Shown in pieces: positions 35,713 through 40,264 of a stretch of 64,000 nt of DNA. Within the stretch, counting starts at the first letter, position 1, and each line of letters begins with the position of its first letter. The notes below the pieces were generated by a model that searched no databases, had not been told where the DNA came from, and saw only the letters and a list, made by a program, of their open reading frames with translations. Made by a program: the position numbers and the translations under genes. The DNA comes from Geobacter sp. DSM 9736 (GTDB lineage: Bacteria > Desulfobacterota > Desulfuromonadia > Geobacterales > Geobacteraceae): the NCBI RefSeq assembly GCF_900187405.1, contig NZ_LT896716.1, positions 2,546,001-2,610,000 on the forward strand, given 5' to 3'.

Positions 35713-36246
35713 ATGAAATCCGAACGGGTGAGGATGATACTGGCAAGCCTGGCAATGCTGGTCTGGCCGGCGATAATGTGCGGGGCCGCCCATGGCCGGG
35801 AAGAGCGATGGTCCAAGCTCACCGAAGATGCCGAGCTTGTCTTCCACATCGACGAGAAGTCGATCCAGAACACCAGATCCGGCACCACCATCTTCTGGGT
35901 CAAGCTCACCGGCAGGAAAAATGATTTTCTCAGGAACGAATACAAGCTCCCGGAACTGGACTATATCCTTTTCAACTACGAGATAGACTGCAACAAGGGG
36001 ATCTACAAGCCCCGCGGCATCTACTACTATGCGCGGTCCGGAAAACAGCTGGACAAACAGGTACCTCTCTCCACAGACATGACAGATGCAGAGCCTGTCC
36101 CCCCCGAGTCGGTGATGGAGCTCGCACAGAATTATGTCTGCGCCGAGGAACTGTCCCTTCCCGAAGCACAATCCCCCTCCTCTCCCGAACTGGAAGGAGG
36201 CGCACCGGGCCTCTCCCCCGAGACCGCACCGGCTCAGATCCGGTAG
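35713..36246 (+). CDS. Exported protein resembling surface-adhesin E domain proteins
   Basis: 177 aa; N-terminal signal peptide (MILASLAMLVWPAIMCGAAHG). The body has the pattern W-x-x-L-x-x-D-x-x-x-x-x-x-H-I-D-x-x-S-I with TIFWVKLTGRKNDFL and YEIDCNKGIYKPRGIYYYARSGK, seen in short bacterial proteins related to surface-adhesin E / DUF-type repeat proteins. The final 35 residues are Pro/Glu-rich. Function not established. It follows the HAF gene by about 70 bases on the same strand. Confidence 0.6.
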   Translation: MKSERVRMILASLAMLVWPAIMCGAAHGREERWSKLTEDAELVFHIDEKSIQNTRSGTTIFWVKLTGRKNDFLRNEYKLPELDYILFNYEIDCNKGIYKPRGIYYYARSGKQLDKQVPLSTDMTDAEPVPPESVMELAQNYVCAEELSLPEAQSPSSPELEGGAPGLSPETAPAQIR

Positions 36247-36331
36247 AGGATCTTCCCCCGCTGCTCCTTGCAGCCGGGCGGTTCTCTGCTACAGTAAATG
36301 AACTGCCATAACAGCTGGTCCAGGAGGTCCC

Positions 36332-36802
36332 ATGTCTCTGGAAGGTACGAAAGCTCCCGGCTTCACACTCGAAGGGAGCGACGGAAAACGGCACAGCCTT
36401 TCTGATTACGCCGGGAAGACTGTGGTCCTATACTTCTATCCCAAGGACAATACCCCCGGATGCACGAAAGAAGCATGCGCCTTCCGCGACCTCGCTCCGC
36501 GACTTGCCGCGATGGATGTGGTTCTCCTCGGCATCAGCAGGGACAGCCTTGCCTCTCACGACAGGTTCATCCGCGAGTTCAACCTCCCCTTCACGCTCCT
36601 CTCCGATCCCGAAAGCAACGTAATGCAGGCCTATGGCGCCTATGGGGAGAAGATATCGTACGGCAAGAAGAGCATCGGCACCATCAGATCGACGGTAGTC
36701 ATCGGATCCGACGGCACCATCGTCAGACATTGGCCGAAGGTGGCCAAAGCGGAGGAGCATCCGGCCGAAGTAGTCGAATACCTCCAGACCATCCTCTCAT
36801 GA
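36332..36802 (+). CDS. bcp: Bcp/PrxQ-type peroxiredoxin
   Basis: Thiol peroxidase of 156 aa that reduces hydroperoxides. Peroxidatic Cys44 lies in TPGCTKEACAF and the resolving Cys49 is five residues later, the alpha-2 type of PrxQ. Normal length, cytosolic, no signal peptide. AGGAGG precedes the ATG. It is followed after 10 bases by a thioredoxin gene that could supply its electrons; the pair looks like one antioxidant operon and that thioredoxin is probably a selenoprotein. Confidence 0.94.
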   Translation: MSLEGTKAPGFTLEGSDGKRHSLSDYAGKTVVLYFYPKDNTPGCTKEACAFRDLAPRLAAMDVVLLGISRDSLASHDRFIREFNLPFTLLSDPESNVMQAYGAYGEKISYGKKSIGTIRSTVVIGSDGTIVRHWPKVAKAEEHPAEVVEYLQTILS

Positions 36803-36812
36803 CGGAGTAGCA

Positions 36813-37259
36813 ATGGAGAGGGAAAGCTACATAATTCATTGCCCTTCCTGCGGCACCGCCAACAGGGTCCCCGGCACGAGCGAGGGGAAAGCGGGGAAGT
36901 GCGGCAACTGCCACAATGCGCTTCCCCCGCTCCACAGCAGACCGGTCCCCCTCACGGACCGGAGCTTCGACCAGTTCCTCAAGGGGTATCGGGGCCTCGT
37001 GCTCGCGGAGTTCTGGGCCGGCTGGTGACCGCACTGCCGGCATTTTGCACCGGTGGTGCAACAGATAGCGCAGGAACTTGCCGGGAAAGCGGCGGTGGTG
37101 CAGGTTAATACCGAAGAAGCACCCGGCGTCTCGGGTCGGTACGGCATACGGAGTATACCCGCCATGCTGCTTATGCGGGGTGACCAGGTGGTCGATCGCA
37201 AAGGCGGGGCCCTTCCGAAGGAAACGGTGCTGGCCTGGGTTAAGAGCCACCTGCATTAG
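36813..37259 (+). CDS. trxC: TrxC-type thioredoxin, probable selenoprotein (in-frame TGA at codon 72)
   Basis: The frame reads through one TGA at 37026-37028 and then continues in the same frame to a TAG at 37257-37259, giving 148 aa. Residues 8-33 hold a zinc ribbon (Cys10, Cys13, Cys30, Cys33) as in E. coli Trx2. The thioredoxin fold follows: FDQFLKG, VLAEFWAGW-[TGA]-PHCRHFAPVV, VVQVNTEEAPGVSGRYGIRSIPAMLLM with the cis-Pro, and GALPKETVLAWVKSHL. The TGA replaces the first Cys of the C-x-x-C active site, so U-P-H-C, while the resolving Cys75 is kept. A hairpin fit for a bacterial SECIS starts 16 bases after the TGA. Read as selenocysteine. The alternative is a nonsense mutation, less likely given position and hairpin. 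Confidence 0.85.
37026..37061 (+). promoter_or_regulatory. Candidate bacterial SECIS element
   Basis: Directly after the in-frame TGA (37026-37028), bases 37045-37051 and 37055-37061 form a perfect 7-bp stem (TTGCACC/GGTGCAA) with the loop GGT; with one pair opened the loop is CGGTG. Bacterial SelB recognises a hairpin whose apical loop shows a G-U in about this window (16-37 bases after the UGA), and here the loop is 24 bases away. It lies wholly inside the coding region, as expected in bacteria. Confidence 0.7.
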
Positions 37260-37276
37260 AACTCTCTGGAGATACC

Positions 37277-37693
37277 ATGGAAAGAGCCGACCTGCTCGCA
37301 CTCGTCATATATACCGGGATCGGCACGGGGCTCATCGGCTTCCTGCTACTTGCCGCCTGGTGGCTCGGGAGCGGCGCCCGATCCCCCGAGAAGGAAGCAG
37401 CTTACGAATCGGGGATGATCCCCACCGGGAACGCGCGGCTCGCCTACCCCGTCCCATTCTACCTTGTCGCCATCTTCTTCATCGTCTTCGACGTCGAGGC
37501 GGTCTTCATCTTTACGTGGGCGGTCGCGTGGGACGAACTTGGGCTCCCGGGAATGGTGCATATAACCATCTTCATCGTCGTCCTGCTCCTGGGGCTAGTC
37601 TGGCTCTGGATCAAGGGGGGGCTCGACTGGGGACCGACGATCTCGAACAGGCGGAATTCCGAAAAAAGACCTCGACAGGGATATTCAGAATGA
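37277..37693 (+). CDS. nuoA: NADH-quinone oxidoreductase subunit A
   Basis: Membrane subunit of complex I, 138 aa with three helices (10-35, 68-90, 96-115). The family signature YESGMIPTGNARLAYPVPFYLVAIFFIVFDVEAVFIFTWAVAW contains the E/D residues of the quinone-site loop. The last 20 residues (NRRNSEKRPRQGYSE) are charged. It opens the nuo operon, 17 bases after the Sec-thioredoxin stop, with AACTCTCTGGAGATACC before the ATG, so the two units may share a transcript. Confidence 0.95.
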   Translation: MERADLLALVIYTGIGTGLIGFLLLAAWWLGSGARSPEKEAAYESGMIPTGNARLAYPVPFYLVAIFFIVFDVEAVFIFTWAVAWDELGLPGMVHITIFIVVLLLGLVWLWIKGGLDWGPTISNRRNSEKRPRQGYSE

Positions 37694-37748
37694 TCGGGAT
37701 AAAAAAGGGAAAAAACTCCAGATTTTCTTCCGTTCACCCCGTAGTCGC

Positions 37749-37871
37749 AGGTTGTTCAAAAATAGGCAGATCGTCGCACCCGCAGAAAGCCCCACGGAGG
37801 CGTAGCAGCGCTACGTCGCACACGGCGGCTTTCGAGGAGGGCGGCGAGATGGCTGTTTTTCAACAACCTCT
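37749..37871. repeat. MITE-like repeat, copy 1 (between nuoA and nuoBCD)
   Basis: A 123-bp element bounded by imperfect inverted ends AGGTTGTTCAAAAATAG and CTGTTTTTCAACAACCTCT. Inside are CCCACGGAGGCGTAG, CAGCGCTACG and CGGCTTTCGAGGAGGGCGG, giving further internal pairing. A longer copy (184 bp) occurs at 47607-47790 in the same operon. No ORF. It lies only 13 bases before the nuoBCD start, so it probably changes the leader of that gene. Confidence 0.85.
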
Positions 37872-37882
37872 CGGGAGATCAC

Positions 37883-40264
37883 GTGACAGACGCTCCTGAA
37901 CACGCACGCGACAACATCCTTCTCACCCGGCTCGACGACCTTATCAACTGGGGACGCGCCAACTCCCTCTGGCCGATGTTTTTCGGCCTCTCCTGCTGTT
38001 TCGTGGAGATGATGACCTCCTTCACCTCACGCTACGACATCTCCCGATTCGGCGCCGAGGTTTTGCGCGGAACGCCTCGTGAAGCGGACCTTATGGTAAT
38101 TGCCGGGACCGTCTTCAAGAAGATGGCCCCCTCGATCCTGCGGCTCTACGAGCAGATGGCAGAGCCCAAATGGGTGATCTCCATGGGGAGCTGTGCCAAC
38201 TCCGGCGGAATGTTCGATGTCTACAGCGTAGTGCAGGGGGTAGACCAGATCCTTCCGGTGGATGTCTACGTACCCGGCTGCCCGCCGCGCCCCGAAGCGT
38301 TTCTCCAGGGGCTAATCCTTCTCCAGGAAAAGATCAGGACCAGCGAACGCCCGGCAAGGCCGGTCCTCCACATGAAGGGAGGAACTCAGGGAACCACCTC
38401 CCCGGTTCTTGTGGACGGCGTGACCAAATCGCGGGATACACGGGGGCCGGGACTCGAAGGGGCCGCCACTCGCGGCACCGAGATGCAGCACCCGCAGTTC
38501 CGTTTCTCCCGTTCGGACATCATGTGGCGCCCGCCTGCACCGCGCAATCCGTTCCCGGAGTTCGGGCTGGAAGGTGAACTGGAAGCCCGCTTCGGCAATG
38601 AGGTCCGATACGACCCTTCCGCCACCGACATGCCCACCTGGCGCGTGCCGCCGCATCTGGTACCCGACGTGCTCCGTCACCTGAAGGAGAGACCTCGTGC
38701 CCCTTTCCGGCGCCTGGAAGACATGACGGCAGTCGACGAGTCGTGTCGGCGCGAGAAAAGCGACTACAAGGACTTCACCGCCTACTACCACCTCCTTAAC
38801 TTCGAGACCCCCGGCTACATACGGATCAAGACGGAGCTGGAAGGGCGCTACCCGGAACTGCCGACTGTCACCGGCGTCTTCCCCTCCGCCGGTTGGTACG
38901 AGCGGGAAGTCTACGACATGTTCGGCATACGCTTCCCGGGTCACCCGAACCTGCGGCGCATCCTGATGCCCGGGGACTGGGAGGGGCACCCGCTCCGCAA
39001 GGAGCATCCCTTCCGCGCCAACGAAATGCCGCCGTACACACTTGAAGATGCCCGCAGCCACAAGCCGCTGCCCGCCCAGGACTTTTTTGACCGGGTTGAC
39101 GAGGAGAACCTAATACTCAACCTGGGCCCGCAGCACCCGGGCACTCACGGAGTTCTCAGGGTGGTCCTCAAGCTCGAAGGGGAAGAGATCGCCGATGTGG
39201 ACACGGAGATAGGCTACCACCACCGCGCCAAGGAGAAGATGGGAGAGCGCCAGAACTGGCACCAGTACATCCCCTACACGGACAGGGTCGATTACCTCGC
39301 CGGCGTCATCAACAATCTGGCCTACGTAAATTCGGTCGAGAAGCTCTGCGGCATCTCCATCCCCGATCGCGCAATCTACATCCGCGTGATGCTCACCGAG
39401 CTCTTCAGGATCGCCAACCATCTGGTATGGCTTGGGACTTTCGCCGCAGATGTAGGAGCCATGACCCCGGTATTCTACACATTCACCGACCGTGAAAAGA
39501 TCTACGACATAGTGGAAATGATCACCGGCGGCCGGATGCATCCCGCCTGGTTCCGGATCGGCGGCGTGGCAGACGATCTGCCGGAAGGATGGGAAGCGCC
39601 GGTGGCGGAGTTTCTCCGGTGGTTCCCCCCCCGGCTCAGAGAATACGAGGGGCTCCTGAACGACAATCCCATCTTCACCGCGCGCCTCAAGGGGGTCGGT
39701 ACCATCAGCCGCGAAGACGCCATCGAGTGGGGTATTTCGGGACCAAACCTCAGGGCTTGCGGGATGGAGTGGGACCTTCGCAAGAAGATGCCCTACTGCG
39801 GCTATGACCGCTTCGACTTCGACATCGCAGTCGCGGAAGGGGGGGACTGCTACGCCCGGTATCTCGTGCGGATCGAGGAGATGAAGCAGTCGCTCCGCAT
39901 CGTCGAACAGGCCTACCGTGGAATGCCGGGTGGACGCTGGATATCGGAGCAGTACCGCTACACACTGCCCCAGAAGCGGGACACACTTGAGGATATCGAA
40001 TCCCTGATCCATCACTTCATAAACACTACAAGAGGGATGGCTCCGCCAAAGGGAGAGTGTTACGCGCCGATCGAAGGGGCAAAAGGGGAGTATGGCTACT
40101 TCGTAGTTTCCGACGGGATCAACATCCCGTACCGGGTAAGGATCAGGACCCCCGGATTCGCCCACATGCAGGCGCTGCCCCTCATGACCAGAGGATGGCT
40201 CGTGGCGGACCTGCTGGCGGTGCTCGGCTCCATCGACTTTGTTCTGGCCGAGGTGGACAGGTAG
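37883..40264 (+). CDS. nuoBCD: NADH-quinone oxidoreductase, fused subunits B-C-D
   Basis: 793 aa carrying three complex I subunits in one chain. NuoB part (about 1-155) has the N2 iron-sulfur ligands Cys38-Cys39 ([10 protein letters not shown]), Cys104 (MGSCANSGG) and Cys133 (VPGCPPRP). A linker (160-210) leads to the NuoC part (about 210-375; [41 protein letters not shown]). The NuoD part (about 395-793) has [13 protein letters not shown] and the quinone-cavity residues around [19 protein letters not shown]-like [10 protein letters not shown] and the final [27 protein letters not shown]. Fusion of C with D is common; a full BCD fusion is rarer. GAGATC precedes the start. Confidence 0.95.

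Follow-up and report, generated by a model that had tools for sequence, protein, structure and literature searches.

A thioredoxin gene with a very probable in-frame selenocysteine codon and bSECIS hairpin between bcp and nuoA of Geobacter sp. DSM 9736

Thioredoxins encoded with an in-frame TGA are already on record for the genus Geobacter: Table 1 of PMC1914089 lists a cluster of three, with GSU3446 of G. sulfurreducens as the example, and PMC1794560 reports a thioredoxin selenoprotein in G. metallireducens, G. sulfurreducens and G. uraniumreducens, its Table 1 giving seven TGA thioredoxins across bacteria and dashes for Sec/Cys conversions in this family. The UxxC thioredoxin also appears among the known selenoproteins in the pertinent sections of the reviews PMC9312934 and PMC13188914. 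The selenocysteine (Sec) thioredoxin family of Geobacter is therefore published (2006, 2007; GSU3446), and the gene analyzed here is a further member of it. It resembles the GSU3446 cluster by description, as a TGA-containing thioredoxin of a Geobacter species; unlike our account of the present gene, the accessible descriptions of that cluster in PMC1914089 and PMC1794560 give neither an active-site dipeptide nor a zinc ribbon. Nor did we find a description of the U-P-H-C motif or of a zinc ribbon in Sec thioredoxins in the main texts of the open-licence literature.

Three other systems share parts of the architecture reported below. Thioredoxin 2 (TrxC) combines a zinc ribbon with a thioredoxin domain, as the present protein probably does, and its active-site dipeptide is G-P; the present protein differs from it in having Sec for the first cysteine, a P-H dipeptide and a TrxC score below the cut-off. 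DsbA, the active site of which is C-P-H-C, also has P-H separating its redox residues, and this dipeptide raises the redox potential. A Sec-thioredoxin of Treponema denticola was reportedly studied experimentally by Kim et al. in 2015; going by what is described of this UxxC thioredoxin, Sec is its first active-site residue, as in our protein.

The gene lies in the window, by which we mean the whole 64,000-nucleotide stretch of DNA that was analyzed, and the source genome is one complete contig of 3,957,683 bases. The features discussed below are, in window coordinates:

36332..36802, + strand: PrxQ/Bcp-type peroxiredoxin gene, ending 10 nt short of the thioredoxin start codon (domain matches, coordinates)
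36803..36812, + strand: gap CGGAGTAGCA with a Shine-Dalgarno-like GGAG, a putative ribosome-binding site, before the thioredoxin ATG
36813..37259, + strand: thioredoxin gene, very probably for a selenoprotein of 148 residues with Sec at codon 72; TrxC-like, with a putative zinc ribbon and a thioredoxin domain (frame, domain scores, homologues, model)
36840..36911, + strand: putative zinc-ribbon cysteines C10, C13, C30 and C33, N-terminal (no variation across 38 aligned rows; Zn_ribbon_Thio2 27.0 against a cut-off of 27.1)
37026..37028, + strand: in-frame TGA, very probably read as Sec, first residue of the W-U-P-H-C redox motif (TGA at 76 of 90 loci, Cys codon at 14, any other at 0)
37045..37061, + strand: very probable bSECIS hairpin of 7 bp with apical loop GGT at 37052-37054, 23 nt from TGA to loop (folding, pair conservation)
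37277..37693, + strand: nuoA (complex I chain 3), starting 17 nt past the thioredoxin stop (domain match, coordinates)

A single frame encodes the thioredoxin and, as the first-pass annotation had noticed, is broken by just one TGA, which falls on codon 72, exactly at the first active-site position of W-U-P-H-C; a search of the organism's own genome likewise flagged the thioredoxin match here with '1 TGA' inside. With C written for U, the product matches the PF00085 thioredoxin domain at 85.1 bits (cut-off 23.5), and its AlphaFold model has a mean pLDDT of 94.8. The NCBIfam TrxC model (NF008229) is the top match at 116.8 bits, under its curated cut-off of 125, and the Pfam Zn_ribbon_Thio2 score of 27.0 is just under 27.1; as both fall slightly short of curated cut-offs, we label the protein 'TrxC-like'. 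The initial assignment to TrxC thus stands as a best match but not at the curated threshold, and the zinc ribbon described as intact has all four of its cysteines but likewise a score below its cut-off. In Foldseek searches, again with C written for U, thioredoxin 2 structures rank first among PDB entries (the top four being 3p2a, 7d6l, 7ysi and 2ppt), at 31-35% identity. Over both domains the rmsd to these structures is 7.4-8.0 A, as against 0.8-1.7 A (up to 2.5) for most of the single thioredoxin domains among the listed matches; therefore, in the predicted model, the zinc ribbon is probably placed differently relative to the thioredoxin domain than in the thioredoxin 2 structures. The likeness to DsbA does not extend beyond the dipeptide to the domain level: the DsbA family is absent from the eight Pfam matches of the protein, no DsbA entry occurs among the best 50 of 1222 Foldseek matches, which are thioredoxins, their fusions and complexes, and the residue preceding the conserved Pro116 is isoleucine, as in the solved thioredoxins aligned with it.

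For comparison we assembled 90 homologous loci, including that of the window, from among the matches listed in 196 genomes (its own and those of relatives) plus three added fetches. The window's own gene recurs as a duplicate (L029) that stands outside all counts; a contig-edge fragment of G013 with one TGA was left out, as were other distant matches scoring under 95 bits, and L080, a short locus with further stops, is included wherever sites and hairpins are counted. At the Sec site these loci have TGA in 76 cases, TGC in nine, TGT in five and nothing else, so that the alternation between TGA and Cys codons which the first-pass annotation had proposed to look for is complete, TGG occurring at 0/90. 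P-H-C follows the TGA in all 76 Sec forms (WUPHC 57, TUPHC 18, SUPHC 1), which makes the P-H dipeptide a trait of the family and not an oddity of the window gene. The 12 close Cys forms read WCPHC (10), WCTHC (1) and TCPHC (1), and the two distant ones, L117 and L118, have CGYC and CGPC. The 76 Sec loci are distributed over 71 genomes, with two copies each in G005, G019, G052, G064 and G114; among the loci taken, no genome has a Sec and a Cys form together. A scan of named genomes with the window protein as query returned zero matches. When run with the alignment, the scan used the peptide pattern EFWAPWC, and could therefore find Cys forms and distant thioredoxins but not Sec forms; the first eight of the best 80 of 176 loci are all Cys forms, and their records bear the names Geobacter, Geobacteraceae or Desulfuromonadaceae.

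The presence of TGA at the same site in 75 other loci excludes a chance origin. It also bears on the plainest alternative, that the TGA simply ends translation, or stems from a sequencing error or a recent nonsense mutation, leaving either a broken gene or a 71-residue zinc-ribbon peptide. Decay may indeed occur in this family, as L080 has additional stops and may have decayed, and two TGA-bearing drafts considered further below have no detectable Sec machinery. Against this, the TGA sits at the identical site in 76/90 loci, the alternative codon is always Cys, the protein downstream of the site is conserved in a 38-row alignment (a chosen subset of the 90 loci comprising the window, 31 other Sec and 6 Cys forms, L116 being among those omitted), and the window's genome is a single complete contig with full Sec machinery; we thus regard a broken gene as extremely improbable. 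Homologues that end at this TGA would have argued for it, but apart from L080 the proteins run on past the site. A related alternative is a selenium-dependent switch, in which selenium shortage would lead to termination and to a stable 71-residue zinc-ribbon peptide with a role of its own. The zinc ribbon is indeed encoded entirely upstream of the UGA and its four cysteines are invariant in the 38 rows (C10, C13, C30 and C33 occur in 86, 85, 87 and 87 of 87 rows, with L080, L117 and L118 left out); the Cys-form relatives, however, keep the same N-terminal region without any option of termination, and such a switch appears very unlikely beside a plain selenocysteine codon.

The second line of evidence for that selenocysteine codon is the hairpin TTGCACC-GGT-GGTGCAA, in which 37045-37051 pairs with 37055-37061 and which begins 16 nt past the TGA codon. 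It had been reported as a 7-bp hairpin with a GGT loop 24 bases downstream, and we measure 23 nt from TGA to loop. All seven stem pairs are kept in 74/76 Sec loci and in 2/14 Cys loci, and the loops of the 76 Sec loci are GGC (38), GGT (36), GGG (1) and GTC (1). Across 65 distinct Sec rows 99.6% of stem cells pair, a value that 0/500 shuffles reached, as compared with 65.5% and zero compensatory changes in the 12 close Cys rows (the distant L117 and L118 being left out). Changes on both sides are seen in 2/7 stem pairs (5 cells in the 65 distinct Sec rows), for instance C-G to U-A at pair 21-35 in the window itself, and further pair types in the stem are not above chance (157/500 shuffles as high); covariation is thin because the stem barely varies. 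The codons that form the stem are frozen in 72 distinct rows, with GCA at +7 in 70/72, CCG at +8 in 72/72 and GTG at +10 in 72/72, and at a conserved alanine at +14, seven codons past the frozen GCA, all four Ala codons are in use. Such synonymous freezing points to a constraint on the RNA and not on the protein alone.

Published bSECIS limits are a loop of 3-9 nt, a stem of 4-16 bp, a G in the first two loop positions, 16-37 nt from the UGA and a minimum free energy of -7.5 kcal/mol or lower, as given in PMC13188914. The window hairpin lies within these limits as there stated, with its GGT loop, seven possible pairs, 23 nt and -8.2 kcal/mol when folded alone, the isolated 17-mer forming six of the seven pairs in its minimum-energy fold. 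The comparison with known bSECIS elements proposed in the first pass favors the hairpin, with one qualification: when 50 nt of the window RNA are folded freely, a longer competing stem is preferred and leaves the hairpin a probability of about 0.15, the z-score of that fold against shuffles being only -1.25. Trimming 9-15 nt from this stretch, starting at the T of the TGA, puts the hairpin at the core of the minimum-energy fold. With 15 nt removed, TGA included, it is the minimum-energy structure of the window RNA, and 74/76 Sec forms pass the same trimming test (five inner pairs, 33-nt stretch). A ribosome stationed on the UGA and covering those 9-15 nt might hence free the hairpin. The competing stem (37031-37059), considered as a rival element, was rejected: its 10 pairs are all kept in just 1/76 Sec and 1/14 Cys forms, and it thus does not track the TGA. 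An Rfam scan of 36700-37400 gave zero matches above threshold; an RsmY match overlapping the hairpin (17.2 bits, gathering score 57) and a mir-197 match (20.5 bits against 74) were treated as chance.

The genome also encodes the selenocysteine machinery, and all four genes that the first pass had named as a check score above their cut-offs: tRNA-Sec at 76 bits (cut-off 47; anticodon TCA by ARAGORN), SelB at 378.6 (242.25), SelA at 609.3 (267.9) and SelD at 351.6 (125). The SelD frame itself contains one TGA; after it, this gene (L025, G000:C1:2274293-2275210:-) has a hairpin whose GGC loop resembles the GG-C/U loop of the thioredoxin family. A thioredoxin reductase scores 384.3 bits (cut-off 343.45), and the genome also encodes an ordinary thioredoxin (117.1 bits). 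This setting leaves a negligible likelihood that the UGA is read through as Cys or Trp by a route other than Sec insertion: Cys does replace Sec in 14/90 loci, but loci with TGA retain a SelB-type hairpin that most loci with Cys codons have lost, the genome encodes a dedicated tRNA-Sec (anticodon TCA), and TGG is found at none of the 90 sites. Together, the restriction of the site to TGA or Cys codons, the Sec machinery and the tracking of TGA by the hairpin lead us to infer, from sequence comparison, that the window UGA is very probably a selenocysteine codon and the downstream hairpin its bSECIS, as was first suggested for this locus.

To trace Sec/Cys exchange we used a tree of 89 rows (L080 dropped, L117 and L118 included), the midpoint root of which is uncertain and in which the tree tool flagged long branches, the window's included. 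The tree needs four changes of the Sec/Cys label, all four forced by its starred branches. One falls where the two distant Cys rows attach, and the other three lie inside the family, at a clade of 10 Cys rows, at L075 and at L116. L075 and L116 are Cys forms among Sec forms that retain 7/7 stem pairs and the GG loop; because hairpin and loop are kept, a change from Sec to Cys with a relic SECIS is the simplest account of both. The family thus appears to have undergone three Sec-to-Cys reversions, two of them with a relic SECIS hairpin, and for the clade of 10 Cys rows the apparent direction of change follows from parsimony. In the accessible text of PMC1914089 and PMC1794560 we did not meet these three apparent reversions. 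As side observations, the T-U-P-H-C sub-branch has the active-site Trp replaced by Thr; L058, L060 and L063 have identical protein rows in the tree although their genomes belong to two families (f4, f4 and f3), and L048 and L049 (both f4) also have identical rows. The identity of protein rows across two genome families suggests that the T-U-P-H-C genes have spread horizontally.

SelA was matched in 66/71 Sec-form genomes and in 12/14 Cys-form genomes (10/12 of the close ones), and tRNA-Sec, in the 29 genomes examined besides the window's, in 14/17 Sec-form and 10/12 Cys-form genomes. The Sec-form genomes without a SelA match are G016, G018, G086, G090 and G133, of which G016 and G133 have tRNA-Sec and SelB matches and G018 SelB only. 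G086 and G090, drafts that are 96% and 92% complete, gave no match for SelA, tRNA-Sec or SelB, and their thioredoxin genes (L099 and L055) are of the TGA form with an intact hairpin; possibly the relevant contig is missing from a gapped draft, or the gene was stranded after loss of the Sec trait. The Cys-form genomes G098 and G115 are likewise without a match for all three.

Upstream of the thioredoxin, as had been noted, is the PrxQ/Bcp gene, which ends at 36802. Given gaps of just 10 nt from Bcp to the thioredoxin and 17 nt from the thioredoxin to nuoA, the three genes are likely co-transcribed. We found no terminator-like site on the + strand between Bcp and nuoA; a promoter scan of 36150-37950 on both strands gave zero sites, which is uninformative because only 0.5 were expected. 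Within flanks of up to about 1.5 kb, some of them cut by contig ends, Bcp was detected at 8/90 loci and nuoA at 16/90, and a Bcp-linked operon was accordingly rejected as a rule for the family. At the six nuoA loci of relatives for which orientation was read, nuoA is downstream on the same strand in 6/6. The window also contains a repeat of about 122 bp with inverted ends GGTTGTTCAAAAA ... TTTTTCAACAACC (37738-37880), placed after nuoA and before the next nuo gene. With 40 of 131 candidates scored, the genome has at least 41 copies of it at 85% identity or higher, the window copy included; one of them lies directly downstream of selB (C1:2921023). The frame that follows, at 37883-40264, is a single one of 793 residues with NuoB, NuoC and NuoD domains in a row, an apparent NuoBCD fusion.

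We propose that SelB carries Sec-tRNA(Sec), with its anticodon UCA, to the UGA, directed by the stem-loop that begins 16 nt past it and has a GG-U or GG-C loop, as its conservation indicates. The product would be a TrxC-like thioredoxin, probably cytosolic, with an N-terminal zinc ribbon and a W-U-P-H-C thioredoxin domain. By analogy with thioredoxin chemistry, the selenolate of Sec72 would attack the substrate disulfide and Cys75 would resolve the resulting selenenylsulfide, and the thioredoxin reductase of the genome could recycle the protein. Likely clients would include Bcp/PrxQ, the gene for which seems to share one operon with the thioredoxin gene and, further on, the complex I genes, and it is plausible by analogy that this peroxiredoxin is an electron-accepting client. 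A bolder and rather doubtful proposal is that the U-P-H-C thioredoxins of this order form a functional class of their own, in which Sec and an invariant DsbA-type dipeptide are tuned to a dedicated partner, be it the co-encoded PrxQ or a complex I assembly step, and not to the task of a general reductant; such dedication might explain why some members of the family have kept the gene next to the nuo operon.

A gene that a plain reading cuts in half is thus very probably an intact selenoprotein gene. The published cluster, of three members in Table 1 of PMC1914089 and seven in that of PMC1794560, grows to 76 Sec-form loci with a common SECIS and motif. As Table 1 of PMC1794560 shows no Sec/Cys conversions for thioredoxin, this set of Sec and Cys forms with its three apparent reversions could offer a natural system in which to study how and why Sec is given up.
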